The notes beneath the pieces were generated by a model. It made no database searches, had not been told where the DNA came from, and saw only the letters and a program-made list of their open reading frames with translations. A program made the translations under genes and the position numbers. Positions 2,089 through 22,825 of a stretch of 23,598 bases of DNA are shown here, piece by piece. Source of the DNA: a virus; the IMG/VR virus record IMGVR_UViG_3300038463_000095, positions 1 to 23,598 of that record. One strand, written 5' to 3'. Every line of letters begins with the position of its first letter. The stretch's first letter is position 1.

Positions 2089-2709
2089 ATGGAGTTCGCC
2101 CTTCAATTCACGGAAAGCAACATTCTCAGTGAGATGAGCACCATAACCAGCTTCACACCGGTTCGATGGCCTCTCGCCTTCACCGATGTGATCGACTCGC
2201 TGATAGAGACGGTTTCTTGTTCGAGCTTTACACCCGTTCGATGGGCAATCGCGGTAAGTGACACCCTCGGAACGCTCATTGAGACGTTGACCCGGATAGC
2301 TGGTATTCGTGTTGTCTCGCTTCAATCCTTCTTGGTCCAACCGGTCCAGCGAATGTGGGCAATCGCCGCTGGTTTGCTGGCAAAACAAACTTGGTCTATT
2401 GCTCCCGTTACTAGGAGCTTCGTTGCGGGGAATAATATGCCACTGATTTATGCGACCGAAAAGAGAGACGTTGAGGTTGTCGATTTCACATTTGATTGGA
2501 CGACAGCTATTGGTGCTGACACCATCGCCGGTAGCGTCTGGACGCTACCCGCTGGGGTCACAGCGGTGAGTCAAACTTACACGCCCACGTCGGCGACAGT
2601 TCGCTTGTCGGGTGGCCAAGGCAATTACAACTATGAGCTGACAAACGCTATCACGACCGCATCAGGCTTGGTCATGACCCAAGATTTGTTCGTGCCGGTT
2701 GTTGCGTAG
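2089..2709 (+). CDS. Phage fiber-tail adaptor-like protein, 206 aa
   Basis: The C-terminal 80 residues contain DWTTAIGADTIAGSVWTLPAG, then a short beta stretch (TSATVRLSGGQGNYNYELTN) and a Thr-rich end. This matches the pattern I know from phage fiber-tail adaptor proteins, 'D-W-x-x-x-L-x-x-D-x-I-x-x-S-x-W-x-x-P-x-G'. Such proteins have an Ig-like or FN3-like fold and are thought to join fibers to the tail. The N-terminal half is unusual: a 25-residue tandem duplication (residues 21-70) rich in Trp and hydrophobic residues. The start is ATG 2089, with ATG 2134 in frame as an alternative; neither has a strong binding site. Its end overlaps possible upstream starts of the HNH gene. Confidence 0.65.
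   Translation: MEFALQFTESNILSEMSTITSFTPVRWPLAFTDVIDSLIETVSCSSFTPVRWAIAVSDTLGTLIETLTRIAGIRVVSLQSFLVQPVQRMWAIAAGLLAKQTWSIAPVTRSFVAGNNMPLIYATEKRDVEVVDFTFDWTTAIGADTIAGSVWTLPAGVTAVSQTYTPTSATVRLSGGQGNYNYELTNAITTASGLVMTQDLFVPVVA
2149..2298 (+). repeat. 75-bp tandem coding duplication
   Basis: Two adjacent 75-bp units (2149-2223 and 2224-2298) encode 25-residue repeats that both begin S-F-T-P-V-R-W and share the later D-x-x-x-x-L-I-E-T. The DNA has diverged at many third positions, so the duplication is old or has been kept for protein function. A weaker third copy may follow (P-V-Q-R-M-W-A-I-A). Confidence 0.7.
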
Positions 2710-2710
2710 C

Positions 2711-3073
2711 GTGCCTGACAGAGCACTGAGACCTTGCGCGTACGGTCCATCATGCAGCGCGTTGGTCGCTGGTGGCAACTACTGTGAGGCGCATCGGCGG
2801 TCAAGCAAGAAAGAGTATGACCAGCGGCGCGGGAACAGCACGGAGCGAGGGTACGGGACGGCGAGGTGGGTACGGTTCCGGTCTTGGTTCCTTGAACGCC
2901 ATCCCATCTGTGAGATTCACACGATAGACAATGACACGACTTGCGAATCATTAAGTGAGCACGTTCACCATTTGGTGAAGGTAAGGAGTAATCGGTCTCT
3001 GATGTACGTCGAGAGTAACTGTCGAGGTCTGTGTGAGTCACACCACAACCAACTCAGCTCTAGGGGCCTCTGA
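2711..3073 (+). CDS. HNH endonuclease next to the terminase
   Basis: A protein of about 120 residues, counted here from GTG 2711; the frame also offers TTG starts at 2699 and 2702 inside the preceding gene. The N-terminus holds a possible zinc site (C9, C15, C25, H28). A basic R-G-Y-G-T-A-R-W segment and F-L-E-R-H-P-I-C lead into the HNH core: H-V-H-H at 84-87, N103, and L-C-E-S-H-H-N at 107-113. This is the usual phage HNH layout ('H-x-H-H...N-x-x-x-L-C-x-x-H-H'). HNH proteins directly upstream of terminase genes are common in HK97-like phages, where some assist cos cleavage by terminase; others are homing enzymes. Position favours a packaging role but does not prove it. Confidence 0.85.
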   Translation: MPDRALRPCAYGPSCSALVAGGNYCEAHRRSSKKEYDQRRGNSTERGYGTARWVRFRSWFLERHPICEIHTIDNDTTCESLSEHVHHLVKVRSNRSLMYVESNCRGLCESHHNQLSSRGL

Positions 3074-3164
3074 AGGGTGGGGCGGCTGCAAAATATTGAG
3101 CAGCAACGACTTATCGACCGACCGCTACGTGAAAGTTTTTTACCCTCCGCCAAAAAGTTGAAAT

Positions 3165-7168: not shown

Positions 7169-8155
7169 GTGGAAGCAAAACCATACGGCGTCATTTATCT
7201 CATTACGAATACGGTGAACGGGAAGGTTTACGTCGGACTCACCACGCAGACTCTGAGTGCTCGATGGACCGGGCATCTTGGAGAGGCGAGGCGAGGCGCT
7301 AAAACCTCTTTACACTGTGCCATTCGTAAATACGGCGCTGATTCATTCACAAGGCGAGAGATCCATGAAGCCAATTCAAAAGAAGAATTGTTGGCGCTTG
7401 AGATCGCCGAAATAGCCGAGTATCGATCAACCGAACCCGAATTCGGGTATAACCTCACTTACGGCGGCGAAGGAGTAAGAGCTTCACCTGAGGCAGCGGA
7501 GAAACTTCGCCAAGCACGTCGAAGTTATGCGGCCACACCGGAAGGGGCAGCAACGTTGTCAGCAGCGAGGAAAGGTAAACCGTGGTCTCCTACGGAACGA
7601 CTGAAGCATGAGTCGGTGCGCTCTATTTATTGGGCTGACCCAGCGAATAGGGAGCGACGGGTTGAACTTTTGAGAAAGGTCTGCTTTACGCCTGAAGCCT
7701 TACGAAAACAATCTGAAGCCGGTGTTAGGCGCTATGAAGATCAAACTGAGCGGGACAGGCAGGCCGAGAGGATGAGAAAACGGTTTGAGAAACAAGCGGA
7801 ACGTGACCGGCTTAGGCAAACAAGCCGTGCAATGTGGACGGTCCCAGGATTCCGAGAGTCACACGCGGCTAGCCAGTCGGCCTACTGGTCATCAAAGGAA
7901 TCACATATTCGAGCTTCCCAAGCCTTATTAGAGCGGTATAAAGATCCGGCAGCAAAAGCTGTCACGCAGGCGGCTGGTAAGAACTTTCGTACTTCGGAAG
8001 AAGGGTTGGCCTTAAACGTCAAGCATTCATTTCGTTTAAAGGAGAACCATCGCATGAAGAAAGCCTGGGCGATCTTAGAAGCCGAGTTAATTGCATCAGG
8101 AGACATTACGAATGAAAAAACCAACATTGGGTCGGGAGAATGCATCAAAGCTTGA
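7169..8155 (+). CDS. GIY-YIG homing-type endonuclease
   Basis: A 328-residue DNA nuclease of the GIY-YIG superfamily. The catalytic domain spans residues 6-102: G-V-I-Y at 7-10, V-Y-V-G at 20-23, R32 (L-S-A-R-W), H36, the likely metal-binding E78 (L-A-L-E), and the G-Y-N-L-T-Y-G-G-E-G end at 93-102. The remaining 225 residues are basic and helical with repeated short segments (P-E-A-A-E-K-L-R-Q-A-R-R; P-E-A-L-R-K-Q-S-E-A-G), as in NUMOD-type DNA-binding tails. It sits between portal and protease, where most HK97-like phages have nothing, and looks more A-rich than its neighbours; both suggest insertion as a free-standing homing gene. Start is GTG 7169 with a poor binding site. Its 3' end overlaps the protease gene by 44 bases. 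Confidence 0.92.
   Translation: MEAKPYGVIYLITNTVNGKVYVGLTTQTLSARWTGHLGEARRGAKTSLHCAIRKYGADSFTRREIHEANSKEELLALEIAEIAEYRSTEPEFGYNLTYGGEGVRASPEAAEKLRQARRSYAATPEGAATLSAARKGKPWSPTERLKHESVRSIYWADPANRERRVELLRKVCFTPEALRKQSEAGVRRYEDQTERDRQAERMRKRFEKQAERDRLRQTSRAMWTVPGFRESHAASQSAYWSSKESHIRASQALLERYKDPAAKAVTQAAGKNFRTSEEGLALNVKHSFRLKENHRMKKAWAILEAELIASGDITNEKTNIGSGECIKA
8098..8114 (+). promoter_or_regulatory. Ribosome binding site of the prohead protease, inside the endonuclease gene
   Basis: AGGAGA at 8098-8103 lies eight bases before ATG 8112. It fixes the protease start there rather than at the in-frame codon 21 bases upstream (8091). Both the binding site and the first 15 codons of the protease lie within the end of the endonuclease gene. 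Confidence 0.75.
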
Positions 8156-11564: not shown

Positions 11565-11995
11565 TAGTCGCGAACGTCACTGGCCTCGAAGCGCTACAAG
11601 AGGCGCTCACTAACCTGGAGCCCAAGCTTCAGCGGAAGAGTATCAAAGACGCCATTCTCGCGGCGGCGCAACCGATCATCGAGGATGCCAAAGCCAAGGC
11701 ACCGGTATTGCAAGTGCCAACGCCAGAACGTTACCCCGGTGAACTCCGCGACAGCATCAACGTGTCCGTGAAGAGCAAGAAGAATTTCATCAGCGCCCGC
11801 ATCGGGCCGGAACGTGTGAAGGGCGACAGTAATCAGACGCCCGCCACATACGGGCTCGTAATGGAGTTCGGCGGTAAGCATTGGCGCAAACAACCATACA
11901 TGCGGCCAGCATTCGACGCTAAAAACGGTGCAGCGCTCGATACCTTCGTTGCCACGCTGACGACTGAAGTGGAGAAATTGGCGGTGAGCAAATGA
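11561..11995 (+). CDS. HK97 gp10-like tail completion protein
   Basis: A 144-residue protein of the HK97 gp10-like family (PF04883), which joins head and tail. The start is ATG 11561, which forms an ATGA overlap with the upstream stop and has GGAG (11550-11553) seven bases before it. An in-frame ATG eight codons earlier is less likely. Family features are the L-E-A-L-Q-E-A-L-T-N-L helix, A-A-A-Q-P-I-I-E-D-A-K-A-K-A-P-V near residue 45, the G-E-L-R-D-S-I segment, and the E-F-G...Q-P-Y-M-R-P-A-F-D end. It overlaps the next gene by four bases. Confidence 0.9.
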   Translation: MIVANVTGLEALQEALTNLEPKLQRKSIKDAILAAAQPIIEDAKAKAPVLQVPTPERYPGELRDSINVSVKSKKNFISARIGPERVKGDSNQTPATYGLVMEFGGKHWRKQPYMRPAFDAKNGAALDTFVATLTTEVEKLAVSK

Positions 11996-12390
11996 TAGAA
12001 GCTGGTTTGGTTGCACTCATAAACGCAGACGCCGGTGTTCAAGCGATCACTACCACTGGCGGCTACCTGTCGGAGTTGCCACCCAATGCAACTTTGCCTT
12101 CGTGGACCCACAGCGTAATCAGCGAACCGGTTGACTATTTACTCACCGGCCCCGACACGCTAGTGAAGCGGCGGGTACAGATTGACGCTTACTCTCAGAG
12201 CCCCGACACCTGCCTCACCCTCTCTTATGCGATTGAGCAAGTGCTGAGCGGGTACAGCGGGACGTTGCAGGACACAGCCGCCACGGTTGTCGCCTTGGTG
12301 GCGAAAGACAATATGACTGACTTCTTCGATGACGACGCAAGAAACTATCGGAGAAGCGTCGATTACTTTGTCTTCTACTACAAGCAATAA
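11992..12390 (+). CDS. Tail terminator / DUF3168-type protein
   Basis: A 132-residue protein whose start overlaps the gp10-like stop (ATGA). Its order of features fits DUF3168-type (PF11367) tail terminators, which cap the tail tube and contact the connector: the L-V-A-L-I-N-A-D-A-G-V helix, L-P-P-N-A-T-L-P-S-W-T-H, R-R-V-Q-I-D-A-Y-S, and the end D-D-A-R-N-Y-R-R-S-V-D-Y-F-V-F-Y. Position between the gp10-like gene and the tail tube gene supports this. Sequence similarity within the family is low, so the assignment depends partly on order. Confidence 0.82.
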   Translation: MIEAGLVALINADAGVQAITTTGGYLSELPPNATLPSWTHSVISEPVDYLLTGPDTLVKRRVQIDAYSQSPDTCLTLSYAIEQVLSGYSGTLQDTAATVVALVAKDNMTDFFDDDARNYRRSVDYFVFYYKQ

Positions 12391-12448
12391 GACTACCCAA
12401 CCCATAAGAGAACGTTCACTTCAGATTCAGTTTCCTTAAGGAGTATCA

Positions 12449-12910
12449 ATGCCCACAGCACCCACCCTCACGCCATCGAACGCGTCACTTGGATATGGAG
12501 CCATCTTTTCCACCGGCGTTCTCGCCAGCGGTTCGGTCACCTACACAGCGGTCGCAAACATCGCCAGCATCAGCTTCGAAGGCTTCACGGTCCCCGAAGT
12601 GGACGTAACGAACTTGCTCTCCCCGAACATGACCAAAGAGTCAATCCCAGGACTTCTGACGCCGGGCAGCATCTCGCTAACTGGGCAGTTCACGAATGAC
12701 GCCGGACAGGCAGAGCTGGTCACACTCGGCACCAGCCGAACAGTGTTTCCATTCGAGGTTACTGCCGCGCTCAACGGCGGCAAGACCTACACGCTCCAGG
12801 GCAATGGGTACGTCACGAAGCTGTCCCGTGGGCCTTTCGAGGCGGACAAATCGGTGGAATTTAAGGCCGATATAAAAGTGTCGGGTGCGTTCCTCGAAAC
12901 CATCGCCTAA
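12449..12910 (+). CDS. Major tail tube protein
   Basis: A 153-residue beta-rich protein preceded by a strong site (TAAGGAG, 12437-12443, five bases before ATG). The start L-G-Y-G-A-I-F-S-T-G and the segment F-E-G-F-T-V-P-E-V-D-V-T-N-L, followed by G-L-L-T-P-G-S-I-S-L-T-G-Q-F and a late G-N-G-Y-V-T-K-L, are typical of lambda-type tail tube subunits. It stacks into hexamer rings around the tape measure protein. The strong binding site agrees with a protein needed in many copies. It is shorter than lambda gpV and lacks its Ig-like C-terminal domain. Confidence 0.85.
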   Translation: MPTAPTLTPSNASLGYGAIFSTGVLASGSVTYTAVANIASISFEGFTVPEVDVTNLLSPNMTKESIPGLLTPGSISLTGQFTNDAGQAELVTLGTSRTVFPFEVTAALNGGKTYTLQGNGYVTKLSRGPFEADKSVEFKADIKVSGAFLETIA

Positions 12911-12921
12911 TTCAGTAATCT

Positions 12922-13278
12922 ATGCCCAAAAAAGTCTCGTCCATCGCGAACAAATTAATCAAGAACGTTACCATCACGCTCGACGGTAAGACGTGGCCGG
13001 TGGTGATCACCCACAACCTGCTCATCGACGTTGAGGCATTAACCGGCCTCAACGTCCTGAGTGGTGAGGTTAATCTGATCAAGCCATCCGCCACATTACT
13101 CCGTGCCATCGTGTTCCTCTCGCTTCAACGCGCTGGATACAAGGGCACCATCGAAAGTGTTGGCGACCTGATCGGCCCGCATAACCTTGTACCTCTGCAA
13201 GAAGCCATCCTCACCGCCTGGGCTGCCTCCATGCCGGAGCCTGAGGTGACGGACCCAAACGTGTCAGCGACCGCCTAA
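12922..13278 (+). CDS. Tail assembly chaperone, short form (G-like)
   Basis: A 118-residue protein between tail tube and tape measure genes, the position of lambda gpG. It begins with a basic segment, then T-I-T-L-D-G-K-T-W-P-V-V-I-T-H, the D-V-E-A-L-T-G-L-N-V-L helix and a C-terminal helix ending in acidic residues. In lambda-like phages this protein and its frameshifted longer form guide tape measure folding and tube polymerisation, and are absent from the mature virion. The last codons contain a CCCAAAC slippery heptamer (13254-13260), strong support for the chaperone call. Confidence 0.85.
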   Translation: MPKKVSSIANKLIKNVTITLDGKTWPVVITHNLLIDVEALTGLNVLSGEVNLIKPSATLLRAIVFLSLQRAGYKGTIESVGDLIGPHNLVPLQEAILTAWAASMPEPEVTDPNVSATA

Positions 13279-13610
13279 CTCAGCCACTCACGTGGCTTGA
13301 TTGCTGGGCTATCGCGAGAATCGATCTAGGTCTCTCCGACAACGAATGGCTCGCTATGACGCCCAGACAGCTCCAGAGCCTAAGAAAGCGAAAGCTGGAA
13401 GCGATGCAGAGGGAAGAGCTACTCGTCGGCCTCATTTGCAGCGCGTCGGTCAACTATAGCTTCTGTCACCCGGAGAAGCCCGTGCCGCCCACGTATTGGA
13501 TGCTCCATCCACCTCCACCTGAGAAGCTTAAACCGCTCACCGGCGACGACATCCTGGCCATGGTACATGGACTTCCAAAACAGTTTGTGATGAGACACGG
13601 GGAGGCTTAG
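12922..13610 (+). CDS. Tail assembly chaperone, -1 frameshift form (GT-like)
   Basis: Predicted fusion of about 229 residues: 113 codons of the short form up to AAC 13258-13260, then a -1 shift into the frame read from CGT 13260 to TAG 13608-13610. The second frame has no stop from 13245 on. It encodes Q-P-L-T-W-L-D-C-W-A-I-A-R-I-D-L-G-L-S and then D-N-E-W-L-A-M-T-P-R-Q-L, matching the 'L-G-L-S/T-x-x-E-F-W-x-M-T-P-R-E-L' pattern of chaperone T domains. The only ATG for a separate gene (13356) lies in the middle of that conserved segment and has no binding site, so frameshifting explains the data better. Shift efficiency is unknown. Confidence 0.85.
13254..13260 (+). other. Programmed -1 ribosomal frameshift site (CCCAAAC)
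   Basis: The heptamer reads C-CCA-AAC in the zero frame, an exact X-XXY-YYZ slippery site. An SD-like GAGGTG lies at 13243-13248, five bases upstream, and a 6-bp hairpin (AGCCAC 13282-13287 with GTGGCT 13292-13297) follows 21 bases downstream. The zero-frame stop is 16 bases after the heptamer. The stimulatory roles of these two elements are inference. Confidence 0.85.
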
Positions 13611-16600
13611 TGAGTGTAACGGTCGGCAGCTTAAATATTTCTTTGTCCGCGTCCACTTCCACGCTAGAGCATGACCTAGGGAAGGCTAGCGCCCTTGCGG
13701 GCCGCACCGTTGCCGACATCAAGCGGTCCTTCCAAACCCTTGCTACCATCGGTCTCTCCTTCGGCGCTGCTCTAACGACCGGCCTGGGCGTGATGGTAAC
13801 CAAGTCCGTAGAAGCCATCGGCTCCATGTCCCGGCTAGCACAAGCGGCGGGCACCACGGTAGGTAGTTTCTTAACTCTCGCGTATGCCGCGAAACGCTCC
13901 CATCTCGAAACTGAACAACTCGCTGGCGGCATGGAGAAACTCGCCAAAGCTTCCTTCGGTGCACAGAACGGCAACACCACTCTCGCCAATGTGTTCAGTC
14001 GCCTTGGCGTCTCTGTAAGCGATGGTAACGGCCATCTCAAAGACACCGGCGTCCTCTTCAACGAATTGGCACCGAAGTTTGCCGCGATGCATGACGGCGC
14101 GGGGAAAACGGCTCTCGCCATGCAGGTCTTCGGCAAGGCGGGTGCGGCACTCATCCCCATGCTCAATGAGTACGGGGCGCACCAAGCGGAGATCACCGCC
14201 GAAGCAAAACGGTTCGGTGTTGTGATTGGTGAAGAGACCGCCGCGAAGGTTGGTGTCTTTCACGAGTCGTTAGTGCGCCTCGAAGCGGCGGGTGAGGGAG
14301 TTGGTCTCTCAGTCACGGCAGCGATGCTACCCGCGCTACAGCAGCTAGAGACCGGCCTGGAGAATGTTTCCACCAAGATCAACCTGCCCGATCTCTCCAA
14401 GGCTTTTGGTGAACATGTAGCCGACGCGATCATCAAGATCGCCGAAGGAATGGCGTTCCTGGCCGACAATGCCAAGACGCTCACAGTTGTCTTTGGCGGC
14501 CTCGCCGCTCTCAAGTTCGGCACCATGTTCGCCCCGCTCGTCCGTGACTTGACCGGTGGTGGCCTCGCTAACTTATTCGCGGGCTTGTCGAAAGTTACCC
14601 TCGATCTCTTCGGTATCACCGGCAGACAGATCATCGCCTTCAAAGACATGGGCGCTGGTGCTCTAGCGGCGGGGAAGGGTCTGTCTGAGTTCATCCAATT
14701 CGTTGGTTTACTGGCCAAAGAAGAAGGTCTTGCCAGTGCCGCACAATACGTGCTAAACGCTGCCGTGGAGGTGAATCCTTATGTTGCTGCTGCAACGGCT
14801 ATCGTGGCGCTTGGCGCTCTTCTGTATGCGTTCCGTAAGTCGCTGATCACGGTCGGCAAACAACAGTATGAGATCCGCGACATCTTCGCCGCCGTCTGGC
14901 TCGGCACCAAGAAAGTAGTCACCTCTGTCATTGACGACATCGTCTACTGGTGGCACCGGTTAACGTTCCGGCTATCCGACATATCCTGGATGAAGCCGAT
15001 CTTTGCTGGTTTCCACGCGATAGGTGAGTTCATCGCCAAGTTGACCGGCAAGACCATTGCCTTCGTGCTACCCCAGAATTTGTTGGATCAAGCGAAGAGA
15101 GAGAGAGAAGACGCCGACCGTAAGCCAGCGGCGGCGGCGGCAACGTCTCCGCACACCGACGACCGGCCCTCGCCGGATACCTCCGGCCTTGTGAAAGCGA
15201 AACCTGAAAAGGATGTCTTCCGCGACACGCTCGACAAGATCGTGCAAGTCACGAATGCGCAGAAAGCGCTCAATTATGTAATTGGTCAGTCACCAGAGAT
15301 CATTCAGGCGATGACATCGTCGATGGAGGCCGACGCGCTCATTCTGGAAAAGAACAACGGCCTCCGTGACGCAGGCAAGAAGATACTCACCACCAGCGAA
15401 CAGTCGCAGATCAGGGCCGCCATCGTCTTGCGCGATCTCGCCAAAACCGAAACAGCCTACAAGCAGGAAGTGGTTACCCACCTGCAAAACGCCCAGCTCC
15501 AAATCATACAGGCACGGAACCTTGCTGAGGCACAGTTGCACGGCGTGGAAGCCGTGCGTCAAGCGACCATCGCCAATCAGATCCTTGGTCTTACTTACGG
15601 TAAGACCAGCGCTGAAGTAGCGGCGATGTCAAAGGAGATCGCGGCGGCTTATGAAGGGATGAAGAAGCTATCCAGCTTGGAGGTCATCGCAGGCAACAAT
15701 CAAGAGATCAAAGGGCTCCAGGATAAGACAGTTCTGTTTCGCGCGGAGACCGACGCCATAATAGGTGGCGCGGAGGCGATGCGGCGCTATGAGATCGTAG
15801 CCGCTACCTTGGAGGCGCGGCAGAAACTAGCCGCCGCTACCACTGACAAAGAGCGAGAGTCCTACAAGAAGCTAATAGCTGAACAGACGATGGCTGTTAG
15901 AAAGCAACAATACATCACACGCGAGAAGAGCGCCGTCACGAACTTTGCCGACCCGGTAAAGGTGATGAGCGATGAGAACGACGAGCTACAGTTCCAAGAA
16001 GATCTCTACCGGCAGGTGATGCTGGTGAAGGCCACCAACTTACAGATCATGCAGCGTACGGGGCTGGAGCAAGCAAACTTCAACTCCGCGACAGAGAAGA
16101 CCATCAACCTTCTGCTTCACGAGGGTTCCGCGCTCGACGGCGTCAAAGCGTTCTTCCTGAAGATGCAAATGCAAGCGGAGAGCGCGGCCAGCATTATCTA
16201 CAACTCCCTGAATGACGTGTTCAACAAACTGGCCGAAAACTTCGCAAAGCTGCTCTCGGGCCAGAAGTCCTCCTTCCGCGAAAGCTTCAAAGCGGTGGCC
16301 GAATCCGCGTTATCCGCAACCTTGAAGAAGGGCATGCAGACCAGTGTTGGCGCACTCGGCAAGGTGTTCGGCGTCGATTTAGCCAATGCCAGCAAGCCCG
16401 ATGGATCAACCTCCAAACCCTTCTGGGTCTGGATCAAAGGCGGCGTCTCCCAAGTCGGCTCGATGCTTGGCATTGGGGGAGACAAATCAAACGCGTCTGG
16501 TGCGTCAATTGGTTATGGTGGTGGTGGCGTTGGTGGATTTTTCCAAGGCTTGCTCGGCGCTCTCATTCCACACGCCAGCGGCGGTGAGGTCAATCCATCT

Positions 16601-16858
16601 TCCGCTTACCTTGTTGGGGAGCAAGGGCCGGAGATTCTCACGGGCTTGAGCGGTCGCATCACAAACAGCACAGACTCGATGCGGGCGCTGGGCGCTGGGG
16701 GTCACGCGGCGAGCTACTACATCGACGCCCGTGGCAATAGCAACCCCGCAGAAACTGAGCAGAGATTCCAGCGTGCCTTGGCGGCGGTCCACGGCTCGGC
16801 GGTCAGATCGTCAGTCGCCGTACAGGCGGAAATGAACAGAAGGAGACCAAGATTTTAA
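13610..16858 (+). CDS. Tail tape measure protein
   Basis: A 1082-residue protein that sets tail length inside the tube and takes part in DNA ejection. The start is GTG 13610, which shares its G with the chaperone stop TAG and follows GGGGAGG (13599-13605). Hydrophobic segments lie near residues 43-63 (A-T-I-G-L-S-F-G-A-A-L-T-T-G-L-G-V-M-V), around 290-310, and around 390-412 (A-A-A-T-A-I-V-A-L-G-A-L-L-Y-A). A long, largely helical and charged region follows (about 480-900). The C-terminus has the phage-typical A-S-G-G-E-V...A-Y-L-V-G-E-Q-G-P-E-I-L near residues 989-1010. It is the longest gene in the window, as expected. Confidence 0.96.
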   Translation: MSVTVGSLNISLSASTSTLEHDLGKASALAGRTVADIKRSFQTLATIGLSFGAALTTGLGVMVTKSVEAIGSMSRLAQAAGTTVGSFLTLAYAAKRSHLETEQLAGGMEKLAKASFGAQNGNTTLANVFSRLGVSVSDGNGHLKDTGVLFNELAPKFAAMHDGAGKTALAMQVFGKAGAALIPMLNEYGAHQAEITAEAKRFGVVIGEETAAKVGVFHESLVRLEAAGEGVGLSVTAAMLPALQQLETGLENVSTKINLPDLSKAFGEHVADAIIKIAEGMAFLADNAKTLTVVFGGLAALKFGTMFAPLVRDLTGGGLANLFAGLSKVTLDLFGITGRQIIAFKDMGAGALAAGKGLSEFIQFVGLLAKEEGLASAAQYVLNAAVEVNPYVAAATAIVALGALLYAFRKSLITVGKQQYEIRDIFAAVWLGTKKVVTSVIDDIVYWWHRLTFRLSDISWMKPIFAGFHAIGEFIAKLTGKTIAFVLPQNLLDQAKREREDADRKPAAAAATSPHTDDRPSPDTSGLVKAKPEKDVFRDTLDKIVQVTNAQKALNYVIGQSPEIIQAMTSSMEADALILEKNNGLRDAGKKILTTSEQSQIRAAIVLRDLAKTETAYKQEVVTHLQNAQLQIIQARNLAEAQLHGVEAVRQATIANQILGLTYGKTSAEVAAMSKEIAAAYEGMKKLSSLEVIAGNNQEIKGLQDKTVLFRAETDAIIGGAEAMRRYEIVAATLEARQKLAAATTDKERESYKKLIAEQTMAVRKQQYITREKSAVTNFADPVKVMSDENDELQFQEDLYRQVMLVKATNLQIMQRTGLEQANFNSATEKTINLLLHEGSALDGVKAFFLKMQMQAESAASIIYNSLNDVFNKLAENFAKLLSGQKSSFRESFKAVAESALSATLKKGMQTSVGALGKVFGVDLANASKPDGSTSKPFWVWIKGGVSQVGSMLGIGGDKSNASGASIGYGGGGVGGFFQGLLGALIPHASGGEVNPSSAYLVGEQGPEILTGLSGRITNSTDSMRALGAGGHAASYYIDARGNSNPAETEQRFQRALAAVHGSAVRSSVAVQAEMNRRRPRF

Positions 16859-16859
16859 A

Positions 16860-19157
16860 ATGAAATCACTTTTACTATTTGCCTTATTCGCATCCGCACT
16901 GGCGGCGCAAAACTTTACCAGCGTCACCGCCTCCCATATCCAGGACGCGGGGGGCAATCTCCTACCGTCCGGCCAGCTCTGTGCCCAAGCATGGTCCGGT
17001 AACGCGCCGATTGTGTTCCAGGCAGGCGGTGGGGGCATCGTCATCACGACTCCTACCTGTACGACTGTGACCAACGGAGCCATCACTGGGTTTCAGGTGG
17101 CGAACTCAAACTACACCAACCCACTGAACGTTACCTATGTCTTGACCGTCACCGATAACTCCACCGGCAACGTGGTTTCAAGTACAAAGCCGACGCAGAT
17201 AACAGGCTCCACGTGGAGCTATGACGCCTACATTCCGACCGGCGTACCCCTGGCACTGATCACCGCAGGGCCGCCCGGCCCGCAAGGTATCCAAGGTCCG
17301 GTCGGTCCGATGGGCGCTGTTACGGCCACGGGAACCGGTGGAGCGTTCACCGTCCCCGGCCTGCTCACCGCAGCGCTGATCACCGGCCCGTGGCTCCCCT
17401 GGCATCTACCCGCCAATAGCGGCGTCAAGTGCGACGGTTCCACAGACGACACAGCCGCCATCAATACCGACCTTGCATTGGGAGGCGGCCACATCTATCC
17501 GTCCGGCTCCACCTGTATTGTCTCAGGCGCTTTGAATGTGCCGAGTAACACCACCATACTCGGTTACGGTTGCACCTTGAAATTGGCAAGTAACATCTCC
17601 AATCTAGCAACGACAAAACTGGAGCTGTTCAACCTTGGTGCCTCCACCGATGTGAGCATCCTCGGCTTCAACATCAACGGCATGAAGGAGTTTCAATCCG
17701 CGTTGCCGGATACGCCCAGCGGAACGGTCTCGTATGCGGACCTCTTCTACCTCAATGGTTCGGCGCGGATTCACATCCATGACATTTATGCCACGGAGTA
17801 CCCCGGCTACTTCGCAAACCTTCAGAACGCCAACTACAACGACTTCGACAATGTCCGCTGTCTGCAATGTGGAACGATGCGAGAGAACGCCATCACGGAT
17901 ACATATGGCAATAACAACTACTCGGACGGTATCTTCATGGGCGGAGCCAGCGGGTCCAGCTACAACAGCGTTCGCCACGCCACCTTCGGCCACGATCAAA
18001 GCGTGAGCCCACGGTCGGGTAGTTCAACGGTCATTCCAAATGCTTCTTCGATGCGGGCTGGCGTCACCGTAGACAGTGGCTGGTGGAACTCTGTGGACGA
18101 CATCACATGTTACAACTTGTCTCGCTGCATTCACTTTGAAAACGACACCGACACCGAAGCCAACTACCACAATACGGTGCACAATGTAAAGATCTTGCCC
18201 ATTGGAGATGTGGACCACGCCATCATCGTAAACGTCTTTGGGAGTACGGATCACTTCGGTGACAACTCCTTCTCCGACGTTCATTCGCAGAACTGCCGCC
18301 GCACCGTTAACGGTGTGGCCAACACCTGCGTTGTCTTTAACGAGTGGATTGGTAACACCTTCGACCATTATGAGTCGCAGCTCAAAGACTCTTCTTTCTC
18401 AGGAGCCGTCTTTGTTGCGGGCACGAACATGCTCATCGATAACGTCTCAGGTACCGAGATCAATGGAGGGTCCGCAACTCCGTTTTATCAATCGACGATC
18501 AACAACTACCAAGGCACCTTCATCTGGCTCCCAGGAGCTAACCACGGGCTCACCATCAGTAACTCAACTTTCAACCAAGGCTCGGCCAACACCTCATACG
18601 TGAGCGCAGGCGGAATCGCGCTGACCAACTTGAGTCAGGTTAACCGCTGGCTGAACAACACATTTATATCGAGCAATACGACCGCGAACCTGTTGACGGT
18701 ATCGGCCCCAAGCTATCTGACGGGTAACACCTTTGAGTATTCGGGCGGAAGCACCAACACGAATTCTTTCATCCACCTGAATGGCATCGTTCAAGTCAAC
18801 GGCCTGAACTTCCCGGTCGTCACTCAGGGCAATGCCTTTGTCTCTGACACGAACTCCATGTCGGCTCTTTACTTGGCTGATGGTGGAAACTATTTCGCGC
18901 CGGAGCAAAGCAATATCATCGTCGGCACGATGGTTACCGGATACGTTTACAATTACTCGTCTGCAACACCGGTCGGCGCATTCGGTTATGCCAAAGCATC
19001 AATCGTGAACTCGGGCACGGTGTCGCAAGGACCGACCTCGGACTCCAACGGCAATCTCATCGTCCCCGTGCAGAAATCCACCACCGGCCAGCGCTACCTG
19101 TGCATCGATACGGGTGGACAGCTACACAGCAGCGCCAGCGCTTGCTCAGGGACATAA
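16860..19157 (+). CDS. Beta-helix tail spike with signal peptide and collagen-like segment
   Basis: A 765-residue protein. Residues 1-16 (M-K-S-L-L-L-F-A-L-F-A-S-A-L-A-A) form a classic signal peptide, odd for a virion protein. A domain of about 110 residues follows, then a collagen-like G-P-P-G-P-Q-G-I-Q-G-P-V-G-P-M-G (137-152), then D-G-S-T-D-D-T-A-A-I-N (192-201), the hallmark start of Pectate_lyase_3-type beta-helices. About 500 residues rich in Asn, Thr, Ser and Gly fill the likely beta-helix. Related phage spikes bind or degrade surface polysaccharide; no catalytic residues can be assigned here. It lies between tape measure and tail-tip genes, where spikes are less common. The Shine-Dalgarno (AAGGAG, 16840-16845) is 14 bases from ATG, rather far. 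Confidence 0.85.
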   Translation: MKSLLLFALFASALAAQNFTSVTASHIQDAGGNLLPSGQLCAQAWSGNAPIVFQAGGGGIVITTPTCTTVTNGAITGFQVANSNYTNPLNVTYVLTVTDNSTGNVVSSTKPTQITGSTWSYDAYIPTGVPLALITAGPPGPQGIQGPVGPMGAVTATGTGGAFTVPGLLTAALITGPWLPWHLPANSGVKCDGSTDDTAAINTDLALGGGHIYPSGSTCIVSGALNVPSNTTILGYGCTLKLASNISNLATTKLELFNLGASTDVSILGFNINGMKEFQSALPDTPSGTVSYADLFYLNGSARIHIHDIYATEYPGYFANLQNANYNDFDNVRCLQCGTMRENAITDTYGNNNYSDGIFMGGASGSSYNSVRHATFGHDQSVSPRSGSSTVIPNASSMRAGVTVDSGWWNSVDDITCYNLSRCIHFENDTDTEANYHNTVHNVKILPIGDVDHAIIVNVFGSTDHFGDNSFSDVHSQNCRRTVNGVANTCVVFNEWIGNTFDHYESQLKDSSFSGAVFVAGTNMLIDNVSGTEINGGSATPFYQSTINNYQGTFIWLPGANHGLTISNSTFNQGSANTSYVSAGGIALTNLSQVNRWLNNTFISSNTTANLLTVSAPSYLTGNTFEYSGGSTNTNSFIHLNGIVQVNGLNFPVVTQGNAFVSDTNSMSALYLADGGNYFAPEQSNIIVGTMVTGYVYNYSSATPVGAFGYAKASIVNSGTVSQGPTSDSNGNLIVPVQKSTTGQRYLCIDTGGQLHSSASACSGT

Positions 19158-19160
19158 CCT

Positions 19161-19787
19161 ATGATCACTGGAACCTTCAACGGATGGAACATCGTCTCGA
19201 CCCCGCTAGCGCCAACTTATGCGTCGGTTGAGTTGACGATGAACGATTCGATCTCGGCGAACACGAGCCCGTACACCCATCAGGCGCAGACCATCGACTG
19301 GCAGACCGACTGGTGGTCAGGGCATGTGAGCTTGCCTAACATGCCGAGGCATTATGCGCAAACCTGGATCGCGTTCCTCGCCGAGCTACGCGGCTCTGGA
19401 GCCGCCTTCTACTTAGGTGATGCGGTGGGAGCCATTCCAAGCGGCTGGGCTCACGGCATCTGCGTGACTGCGGGAACCAATGCCAGCAGATCTTCCACGC
19501 TTGCAGTCACCGGGTTTAAACCCAGCATGGCGCGGCAGCTATTGCCGGGTGACTACTTCCAGATCGGTGCCCGGCTGCACCAGAATCTCGAAGTCGTCAA
19601 CAGCGACTCAACCGGCAGTGCAACGTTGAACATCTGGCCGCGAATTCGCGAGTCCCCCGCACCCGGTACGCCGGTTATTTTCCACAACGCGGTTGGGCTG
19701 TTCCGGCTATCGACAAGCGAACGCTCGTTTAACATTTCCGTGGATCACATCTATAACATCAACTTCAAGGTGGAGGAGGCGCTATAA
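19161..19787 (+). CDS. Minor tail protein (M-like position), 208 aa
   Basis: A 208-residue protein starting three bases after the spike stop. It has an N-terminal beta-rich part with I-D-W-Q-T-D-W-W-S-G-H-V-S-L-P, then W-I-A-F-L-A-E-L-R-G-S-G-A-A-F-Y-L-G-D, and a late G-D-Y-F-Q-I-G-A-R-L-H segment leading to R-I-R-E-S-P-A-P-G-T-P. The pattern of a Trp-rich body followed by 'L-x-x-G-D-y-x-q-i-g' and 'I-W-P-R-L-R' fits distal or minor tail proteins found after the tape measure gene in HK97/D3-like phages. The order (this gene, the next, an NlpC-like gene, then a tip gene) parallels lambda M-L-K-J. Specific function is inferred from order. Confidence 0.72.
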   Translation: MITGTFNGWNIVSTPLAPTYASVELTMNDSISANTSPYTHQAQTIDWQTDWWSGHVSLPNMPRHYAQTWIAFLAELRGSGAAFYLGDAVGAIPSGWAHGICVTAGTNASRSSTLAVTGFKPSMARQLLPGDYFQIGARLHQNLEVVNSDSTGSATLNIWPRIRESPAPGTPVIFHNAVGLFRLSTSERSFNISVDHIYNINFKVEEAL

Positions 19788-20343: not shown

Positions 20344-20765
20344 TGCAGCGGCATAACGACTGGCCTTTGAGGCTTCACCAGAAGCTAATCGAACTGAAAG
20401 ACAAGTCCTTCGAGTCGGGGCACCACGACTGTATTCTTGCCGCCGCTACCCTCATCGAATCGATGACGGGAACAGACCCAGGCGCAGACTTCCGTGGAAA
20501 GTACAGCAGCGAACTTGGTGCAACGAAGCAGATAAAGAAGGCCGGGTTTGATTCTTTGGAATCTTTAGTGGACGACATGGCCGCCAAGCATGGAATGACG
20601 CCGGTATCCCCGAACTTTCATCATCGCGGCGATCTGGTGATGCTCGATGACGGTGTCTTCGGAATTGTTCATCTGGATGGTCTTCACGCCGTATATGTAA
20701 CCACGGAAGGGCTGGCCAAGAAACCACTGAGCGAAGTGAAGCGGATTTGGAGAACCCCCTACTAA
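20343..20765 (+). CDS. DUF6950 / NlpC-like tail-tip protein
   Basis: A 140-residue protein starting at ATG 20343, inside the upstream stop. The motif H-H-D-C-I-L-A-A-A-T-L-I-E (27-39) followed by M-T-G-T-D-P-G-A-D-F-R-G-K-Y is the hallmark of DUF6950 proteins. A later R-G-D-L-V-M-L and G-I-V-H-L-D-G-L-H-A-V-Y segment matches the NlpC/P60-like fold, with C30 as the expected nucleophile and a His in the second segment (H-L-D or L-H-A). It occupies the place of lambda gpK and Rhodobacter GTA gp14, tail-tip proteins linked to peptidoglycan cleavage during entry. Enzymatic activity is inferred. Its stop overlaps the next ATG. Confidence 0.85.
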   Translation: MQRHNDWPLRLHQKLIELKDKSFESGHHDCILAAATLIESMTGTDPGADFRGKYSSELGATKQIKKAGFDSLESLVDDMAAKHGMTPVSPNFHHRGDLVMLDDGVFGIVHLDGLHAVYVTTEGLAKKPLSEVKRIWRTPY

Positions 20766-22825
20766 TGGCCAAGGTAATTGCTGGTGTAGCTTTGATCGCT
20801 GCGCTCATCGCCATCCCGCTTACGGGTGGTGGATCACTCGCGCTCTTTTTCTCCACCGGCTACCTGCTCGGGGATCTCGCCATCGCCGGTCTCACCGTTG
20901 GCGCATCACTCATCCTCGGGGGTATCGCTCAAGCGTCGCAGCACCAACTCGGGACATCAATCGCCACTCGCCAAGGTGCAGCCGACCAGCAATATGTGTA
21001 TGGCCGCAGCCGGGTCGGCGGGACGATCATCTATGAATCGATCACCAGCGGCAACGCCCATTACAATGCGGTCGTAGTGCATGCCAGCAATAGCTGCGTC
21101 GGCGTGGTTGCACTCTACCTGGACGGTAAGCAATTGTGGTTCTCAAACCCAGGCGGGGCTCCGGTATACATTCCGGGCACGACCACTCCCGTGGCATTGG
21201 ATTCAGTCACGCATAACTCGCCGATACCGCTGACGAGCTACCGCGACGACGGCCAGACTCACTATGACGCCAGCGGCAACCCGTACAACTTCGGCGGCCA
21301 TGTGTATTGGGAGTCGCGGAATGGGACAGTTACACAAACCACCTTCACCGACTTGACAGCCGACGACCCTATTTGGCCAAGCACCGCTACGGCGTCGGGT
21401 CACTGCTGCTCTTACATCCAACTCAACTACGACTCGGCGACATTTCCGAATGGCTTGCCTTCGATACGCGTGGATATCATCGGCAAGAATGACATCTATG
21501 ATCCCCGCAGCGGAACATATGGGTTCAGCGAAAACCCCGCGCTCATCGCAGCGGATGTGCTCTGCCATACCGCGTACGGCCTGCAATGCGTTTATGCCAA
21601 TGAAATCAATCAAGCGCAGCTCATCGCTTCGGCGAACGTTTGCGATGAATTGATTGCTTTGGCGTCCAGCGGCTACGAGCCGACTTACTCCTGCAACGGA
21701 ACGTTCAGCAGCAACCTCGCACCCGGCGACATCTTACGAGGCATACTTGACTCGATGGCCGGTCGCATGACTTGCGTCAATGGCATATGGAACATCTACG
21801 CCGGGTATTTCTCCGGCGCGGCCATGACGCTCGATCAAACTTCTTTGGTCGCGCCGATCAAATGGAAATTCAATCGGAAGTACCGAGACTTGGTGAACGC
21901 CGTGAAGGCGAGCTTTGTTTGCCCGACGAGTCCATACGTTTCTGCGGGACCCGGTCTCCCCTATGGACAGAAGATCAGCGGCGTTTTCGATGGTGAGTGG
22001 CATCAAGTGGATGCGCCGAACTACATGCAAGATATCCAACACGGCTACGCCGCCGATGCCAACCTGATCGCGGACAATAATGTGCGGCTGTGGCTGGACA
22101 CTCGCTACCCTTTCACGATTAGCGTAGCTACGGTTCAGCGGCTGATGAAGATAGCGCTGATGCGCAACCGGCAACAAGGCGCTGGCACACTCGCCTTCTC
22201 GTTGGCGGGCTACCCGCTCCAACCTCTGGACGTGTTTCAGTTCACTTATCCTCGCTTCGGTTGGGCGGATAAACTCCTGGAAGTGCAACAGACGCGGCTG
22301 AATATCACAGAGCCTAGCGGCACCGAGGCATCAAGAGTGTATGTCGAGATGGATGTGGTTGAGACCGACCCCTCAGTCTACTCGTGGAGCGCGACGGAAG
22401 AGTTACCGTTACAGGATAATCTGCCGCCGCAGCTACCGAATATGGCATACTGTCAGCCTCCGGGCGCACTGACGCTGGAGAGTGACTCCACGACTATGGT
22501 GCAAGGCGCTGATGGCATCCAGAGATCGCAGATAAAGTGCTCATGGACGGGTGTGACGGACGCTTTCATAAATAGAGGCGGCGGCTACGAGTTGCAATAC
22601 CAGCAAACAGGTACGACAACTTGGTTCCCTTATTCGCAGTTCGGCGGGCAAGTGACATCGTGCTATCTCGGCAACGTGAACGATGGGGTTAACTACACGG
22701 TCCAGGTCCGCTCGTACAACACTTCCGGCGCATATAGCGTCTGGATACAAGATTCGATAACCGTTGCGAACGCCAACAGTAACATCACAACGAGCACTTT
22801 TCAGGTGAATGGCACGTCGGTCTAG
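20765..22825 (+). CDS. Tail tip / central fiber protein, gpJ-like
   Basis: A 686-residue host-contact protein. The start is ATG 20765, overlapping the upstream stop (TAATG); the frame also opens at TTG 20747, which is less likely. The N-terminus is strongly hydrophobic with two segments (about 3-19 and 25-56) rich in Gly and Ala, as in many siphophage tip proteins. A body with Q-Q-Y-V-Y-G-R-S-R-V-G-G-T-I-I-Y-E follows, the common 'Y-G-x-x-R-v-G-G' opening of gpJ-type proteins. The last 120 or so residues (from about P-P-G-A-L-T-L, with G-G-Y-E-L-Q-Y-Q and V-N-Y-T-V-Q-V-R-S-Y-N-T-S-G) form a fibronectin type III-like domain. It ends the plus-strand tail module, its stop sharing CTAG with the minus-strand gene. 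Confidence 0.9.
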   Translation: MAKVIAGVALIAALIAIPLTGGGSLALFFSTGYLLGDLAIAGLTVGASLILGGIAQASQHQLGTSIATRQGAADQQYVYGRSRVGGTIIYESITSGNAHYNAVVVHASNSCVGVVALYLDGKQLWFSNPGGAPVYIPGTTTPVALDSVTHNSPIPLTSYRDDGQTHYDASGNPYNFGGHVYWESRNGTVTQTTFTDLTADDPIWPSTATASGHCCSYIQLNYDSATFPNGLPSIRVDIIGKNDIYDPRSGTYGFSENPALIAADVLCHTAYGLQCVYANEINQAQLIASANVCDELIALASSGYEPTYSCNGTFSSNLAPGDILRGILDSMAGRMTCVNGIWNIYAGYFSGAAMTLDQTSLVAPIKWKFNRKYRDLVNAVKASFVCPTSPYVSAGPGLPYGQKISGVFDGEWHQVDAPNYMQDIQHGYAADANLIADNNVRLWLDTRYPFTISVATVQRLMKIALMRNRQQGAGTLAFSLAGYPLQPLDVFQFTYPRFGWADKLLEVQQTRLNITEPSGTEASRVYVEMDVVETDPSVYSWSATEELPLQDNLPPQLPNMAYCQPPGALTLESDSTTMVQGADGIQRSQIKCSWTGVTDAFINRGGGYELQYQQTGTTTWFPYSQFGGQVTSCYLGNVNDGVNYTVQVRSYNTSGAYSVWIQDSITVANANSNITTSTFQVNGTSV

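Follow-up and report, generated by a model that had tools for sequence, protein, structure and literature searches.

A putative -1 frameshift in the tail assembly chaperone pair of a phage family found in Acidobacteriota

The window analysed here, a stretch of 23,598 nt of viral DNA (IMG/VR record IMGVR_UViG_3300038463_000095), carries between its major tail protein and tape measure genes two overlapping reading frames, the second of which has no start codon of its own before position 13356. The reading that we favour, with a probability of about 0.95, is that -1 programmed ribosomal frameshifting decodes the two frames as a tail assembly chaperone pair of the lambda G/GT type, as the first-pass annotation had proposed from the letters of the window and as comparison with relatives now supports. 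The argument is drawn from sequence and comparison, namely from the phase, the overlap, the missing second start, a constant -1 relation and an in-phase slip codon, as well as from a family-wide 3' structure, from in-frame fusions and from signs that purifying selection acts on the shifted stretch.

According to this reading, most ribosomes would translate 12922-13278 into a 118-aa short form, and a minority, with tRNA-Pro at CCA and tRNA-Asn at AAC, would slip back one base (to CCC AAA), read past the TAA and produce a 229-aa long form with a 116-aa C-terminal domain. That slipping occurs, at what rate and with which tRNA moving first are points that we infer. By analogy with lambda, the short form would coat the tape measure and the long form would recruit tail tube subunits. 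Gene callers would report proteins of 118 aa and a truncated 84 aa instead, and would miss the long chaperone.

Frames and gene neighbourhood in the window

The features of the locus and its neighbours are as follows.

12449-12910, + strand: major tail protein gene, upstream neighbour (phrog_158, E 5e-14)
12922-13278, + strand: ORF1, 118 aa, putative short tail assembly chaperone form, gpG-like (phrog_2115 'tail protein', E 2e-7)
13245-13278, + strand: overlap of 34 nt in which both frames are open, between a -1 TGA at 13242-13244 and the frame-0 TAA at 13276-13278
13254-13260, + strand: candidate slip site C_CCA_AAC, in phase (zero-frame codons GAC CCA AAC)
13260-13610, + strand: ORF2, putative -1-frame C-terminal (T-like) domain, 116 aa, without its own start before 13356
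13610-16858, + strand: tail length tape measure gene, downstream neighbour (phrog_8462, E 4.5e-34)
19161-19787: distal tail protein
20747-22825: tail fibre

The -1 frame is open from 13245 to 13610, exactly as first described, and its first ATG, GTG or TTG codon is the ATG at 13356. Since a -1 TGA stands at 13242-13244 and no start precedes that ATG, the shift is possible only within 13245-13278. CCCAAAC does lie in the C-CCA-AAC register at 13254-13260 and upstream of the zero-frame TAA, with a spacing of 15 bases, however, not the 16 originally given. Computed read-through past AAC gives 113 + 116 = 229 aa with the junction ...VTDPN/RVSD..., and the predicted product therefore has the length of about 229 residues that had been expected. 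As for the bare heptamer, it occurs 4 times on both strands of the window versus 2.9 expected, which is not significant; chance is exceeded by the phase of the heptamer, by its location in the 34-nt overlap, by the lack of start codons and by the pattern seen across relatives.

The DNA of the window (23.6 kb) is also contained, heptamer included, in a separately deposited bog MAG of the Bryobacterales (Acidobacteriota), and base by base over 11760-15107 the two differ solely at 13823. Thus, the window is (pro)phage DNA of that lineage, and a mistake in one assembly does not explain the frame break.

The gene order is tail completion, tail terminator, major tail protein, ORF1, ORF2, tape measure, distal tail protein and tail fibre, with the pair flanked by the genes for the major tail protein and the tape measure, as the lambda G/GT type requires. 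The GTG of the tape measure gene overlaps the ORF2 stop (anti-SD duplex -10.8). The ORF1 start at 12922 has no SD (duplex +0.6) and lies 12 bases past the major tail protein stop, and ORF1 may therefore be translated by coupling.

In all 6 loci scanned phrog_2115 matches ORF1, whose AF2 model (pLDDT 80) has named tail assembly and tail tube proteins among its nearest BFVD models; the best match is unnamed (E 7e-4), named tail assembly proteins are found at E 0.002, and the PDB gave no match at E 0.001. ORF2 comes closest in BFVD to a tail assembly protein (E 0.002), and its best family match is phrog_7848, at E 0.002 only. The ORF2 model is confident from about residue 11 (pLDDT 85), and relatives share the motif WLDxWAxARxDLxLSDxEWLxMTPR. 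The Met used by gene callers is residue 33, so a gene called from ATG 13356 would indeed cut the domain, as had been warned, and lose its most conserved part. Neither ORF of the window matches a TAC family in Pfam; for Phage_TAC_11 (PF11836), with a gathering threshold of 27.8 bits, the best relative reaches 23.5 and ORF1 of the window has no match.

Elsewhere in the window, a GIY-YIG endonuclease-like ORF (7169-8155; PF01541, E 4e-10) lies in the head module directly after the portal gene, and the relative L009 has a similar ORF (2349-3125) in its tail module, which suggests homing mobile genes in these phages. The tape measure gene is followed at 16860-19157 by a 765-aa protein with a signal-peptide-like start and a collagen-like GPQGIQGPVGP repeat, for which Pfam gave no match at E 0.001.

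Frame conservation and missing starts in relatives

A search seeded with ORF2 gave one relative from IMG/VR and a second via a two-row profile. Among 396 Acidobacteriota genomes 6 matched, comprising three true pairs, the window's own MAG and two false matches; L012 and L013 were dropped as antisense or unrelated frames. Further relatives came from 30 viral contigs and from genomes of the class, where 18 of 399 carried 22 loci, and the 12 of 299 genomes that matched in another set were all already among those 18. After removal of copies the family comprised 47 distinct homologous loci, window included, from Acidobacteriota genomes and metagenomic viral contigs. A tblastn search of ORF1 and ORF2 of the window and of a relative's ORF2 gave no matches in 50,697 phage records, and the ORF1 query found no relative in the viral_contigs set. 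Automatic classification of the 47 loci yielded 37 two-frame, 7 fused in one frame and 3 ambiguous; L040 and L065, which the ORF1 profile had missed, were placed by hand among the two-frame loci (total 39), and L024 is truncated at a contig end.

The frame of ORF2 is -1 in all 39 two-frame loci and +1 in none, so the -1 relation, whose conservation had been suggested as a check, is constant. The first-pass annotation had also named the opposite outcome, relatives without a slip site and with a second frame starting on its own; instead, all 39 loci have the site, and 38 have no canonical start between it and the domain (1 in 532 -1-frame codons, in L052). These counts bear on whether ORF2 could be a separate gene with its own start, either ATG 13356 or a non-canonical codon, from which translation would begin through coupling or reinitiation once ORF1 has ended. 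We consider this very unlikely. The ATG is present, and 16 of 39 loci have near-canonical CTG, ATT, ATC or ATA codons between the slip site and the domain. However, ATG 13356 has no SD (duplex -1.5), and a start there drops the most conserved part of the domain together with two predicted helices (residues 12-22 and 27-32), whereas in the window neither a canonical nor a near-canonical start is found between slip and domain. A single canonical start in 532 codons of 39 loci argues against independent initiation as well, and so does the constant -1, in place of which independent starts would be expected to show a mixture of -1 and +1.

In 8 close relatives, the stretch that separates the ORF1 stop from the Met shows 105 synonymous codon differences and 12 nonsynonymous ones when read in the -1 frame, and 12:130 when read in frame 0, both figures being counts over all pairs of the 8, so that one change can enter more than once. 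Judged by these counts, the -1-frame stretch before the Met is under purifying selection.

The in-frame fused relatives could encourage the thought that the two frames come from faulty sequencing or assembly, or from the decay of what was one gene, but this has almost no probability left: the same sequence with its heptamer occurs in the independently deposited Bryobacterales MAG, the same -1 split recurs in 39 homologous loci and the -1 stretch is under purifying selection, by which this reading is refuted in the main. Just as improbable is a -1 product of RNA polymerase rather than ribosome slippage, which also makes frame fusions in bacteria (PMC5009743, available text) but is associated with long runs of A or T (PMC3711429, available text) and needs no codon phase, whereas the site here is CCCAAAC, or GACCCTACC or CGGGGGAA in relatives, and the phase of the run is constrained.

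Slip site and candidate stimulators

As for ribosomal frameshifting, every one of the 39 two-frame loci has an in-phase slip tetramer ahead of the conserved domain (24 C_CCT, 5 C_CCC, 4 C_CCA, 5 G_GGG_GAA and 1 G_GGG_GAG), that is, C_CC[T/C/A] in 33 and G_GGG_GA in 6, by a rule that was fixed after the loci had been viewed. Where two candidate sites were present (8 loci: L018, L019, L020, L033, L039, L041, L048, and L052), the one aligned with relatives was used. The exact CCCAAAC, which was to be checked for conservation, is found in only 4 of 39 loci (window, L039, L061, and L063), every C_CCA preceding AAC, and on a tree of both domains it has at least three origins (window; L063; L039 with L061). 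Thus, the site is conserved and the exact heptamer is not, the shared core being C_CCN or G_GGG. The nearest relatives of the window carry C_CCT_ACC, and the glycine form changed several times on the tree (3 changes). The classical X_XXY_YYZ pattern is present in 18 of 39 loci, with CCN as the second codon in 11 and the first in 7; in many of the remaining loci (GACCCTACC, CGCCCTACG, GTCCCTACC) there is, by our own reading, an in-phase C_CCY tetramer alone.

In-phase C_CC or G_GGG was found in 36 of the 37 automatically classified loci, versus 11.6 expected from codon-order and 27.2 from synonymous shuffles, a comparison in which the 37 loci are related and not independent trials and synonymous shuffling alone already gives about 27 of 37. 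Among in-phase C_CCN tetramers, CCT is enriched at the site (24 of 40 vs 3 of 21 elsewhere in the same genes, p 0.0009) and CCG is depleted (2 of 40 vs 5 of 21, p 0.04), the order expected if a proline tRNA must re-pair with CCC. A figure of 0 of 33 CCG was set aside as a product of site selection, the unselected count being 2 of 40. A comparison of GAC and GAT between split and fused loci (p 0.004) was not relied on either, being partly circular because a C before CCN was a condition in choosing the site.

In E. coli constructs, C_CC.U and C_CC.C shift, whereas C_CCA and C_CCG barely do so and only with a strong stimulator; heptamers ending in AAC are weak there, bacteria disfavouring AAC to AAA re-pairing (PMC4066793, available text). 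This weakness counts against the site of the window. CCCAAAC by name is absent from the available text of that paper. The shared essential core of the family appears to be one slippery codon, CCT, CCC or CCA after C or GGG after G, and the AAAC half of the window's site appears to be one of several local solutions.

Two elements near the site had been put forward as possible stimulators.

13280-13300, + strand: 3' stem-loop, candidate stimulator (6-bp core 13282-13287 / 13292-13297)
13243-13248, + strand: SD-like GAGGTG, candidate stimulator (anti-SD duplex -9.9 kcal/mol)

Tests of both were made on 30 of the 39 loci, near copies being left out. The 6-bp stem of the window begins 21 bases past the heptamer, and the 3' structure is modest (z -1.9, -2.65, and -1.2 for 100, 60, and 42 nt, respectively). 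Across the 30 representatives, the segment 6-48 nt past the site has a mean z of -1.85, with 14 of 30 below -2, versus mean values of -0.41 to +0.20 at 7 control offsets (Wilcoxon p 1.2e-6); this 42-nt window starting 6 nt past the site was tried second, after a 60-nt one (p 0.03), so the fold length was chosen after a first look. The 7 fused loci, which need no shift, are on average without 3' structure (mean z -0.42), which counts in favour of the frameshift. Stems vary between loci, and in the window's clade (13 aligned loci) a stem spans the ORF1 stop; it is paired to 78%, and its covariation exceeds that of 499 of 500 shuffles. This stop-spanning hairpin, common to most close relatives, is missing from the window. 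The proposed 6-bp hairpin is thus present, and 3' structure is a trait of the family, but it is not the hairpin that relatives share; on its own the stem is modest, and its position gains support from the family signal.

Regarding the SD-like stretch, the anti-SD duplex averages -6.1 kcal/mol in the 30 representatives vs -2.8 kcal/mol at control positions (p 4e-6). Synonymous codon resampling, however, gives -5.7 (p 0.27), and 26% of resamplings are as strong as the stretch in the window. The codons of the linker peptide itself therefore account for the signal, which was rejected as evidence of RNA-level selection: GAGGTG is where it had been reported, but it is no stronger than codon composition provides.

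Fused relatives and known systems

Both domains share one frame in 7 loci. In L004, L025, L028, L030, L057, and L064, the fused long chaperone is followed directly by a stand-alone ORF1 paralogue, and in the seventh, L031, the contig ends before any paralogue could show; a stand-alone second ORF1 occurs in 0 of the 37 classified two-frame loci. In all six pairs, anti-SD pairing is stronger for the short paralogue than for the fused gene (-3.7 to -11.5 vs -2.9 to +1.4), the value for L028 being unsure, with GTC, which is no start codon, used as the start of its fused gene. By the rule for split loci, C_CC[T/C/A] or G_GGG_GA, the fused linker keeps a site in 1 of 7 (L004). In these relatives recoding is replaced by two genes, a known alternative, and the tree places two-gene and frameshift forms close together. 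On the ORF1 tree, the paralogue of L057 stands apart from the other five, so there may have been two exchanges; one origin also fits. Directly upstream of its fused chaperone, L004 has a long ORF (273-2534), subtilisin-type protease-like by eye, in the place where tail genes are expected.

A tentative model, to which we give somewhat less than even odds, would cover the whole family. The recoding signal would be a single slippery codon with a 3' hairpin, the codon being CCY (or CCA backed by AAC) after C, or GGG after G. In this scheme tRNA-Pro or tRNA-Gly alone would re-pair in -1 while the neighbouring codon drifts, heptamers of the CCCAAAC type would be repeated local reinforcements, and the device would have been exchanged at least once, perhaps twice, for a fused gene and a short paralogue with a stronger ribosome site. 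The family offers a natural series of changing slip sequences with the frameshift retained, and it includes relatives that have given up recoding for two genes. Through it one can test what a bacterial -1 signal cannot do without, one tRNA or two, and whether selection preserves a fixed ratio of short to long form.

The G/GT frameshift of the lambda tail assembly chaperone, along with its counterparts in long-tailed phages, was reportedly described by Xu, Hendrix and Duda in 2004. In systems of this type the second frame lies in -1, in some phages in +1 or -2, and 3' RNA structure and 5' SD-like stimulators are common, not universal. Unlike lambda, the window has C_CCA_AAC and not an AAG-ending heptamer, and its relatives often have only the C_CCN tetramer. 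Similarity to Phage_TAC_11 / GTA-gp10 (PF11836) and Phage_TAC_6 (PF09550) is confined to weak matches (E 6e-5 to 0.015) of ORF1 of L002, L004, and L009 and ORF2 of L009, all under the Pfam curated cut-off.

Frameshifted tail chaperones are established, and heptamers ending in AAC have been proposed for those of haloarchaeal viruses (both PMC5009743, available text). The literal string CCCAAAC retrieved no paper on phage frameshifting by title, and a search joining Acidobacteria, tail assembly chaperone and frameshift retrieved only a genome-wide survey (PMC3711429), in the available text of which Acidobacteria occur in the species table alone. One homologous family that keeps a single slippery Pro or Gly codon while the heptamer drifts was not found in the available text of the literature searched. 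GGGGGAA and other non-classical motifs have been noted in SEA-PHAGES phages, and the PRFect classes include fivetwo (GGGGGAA), threethree and twoonefour (PMC10885494, available text). Here GGGGGAA is present in 5 of 39 loci and a three-three heptamer in 18 of 39; unlike these classes, many of the remaining loci have the in-phase C_CCY tetramer alone.

Two-gene chaperones without a frameshift are described for Bacillus phage 0305phi8-36 (PMC2147016, available text) and for T4-like phages, as cited in the available text of PMC10885494. Like them, the fused relatives have separate genes for the long, fused form and for a short paralogue; unlike them, the two-gene and frameshift forms occur here inside one recognisable protein family.
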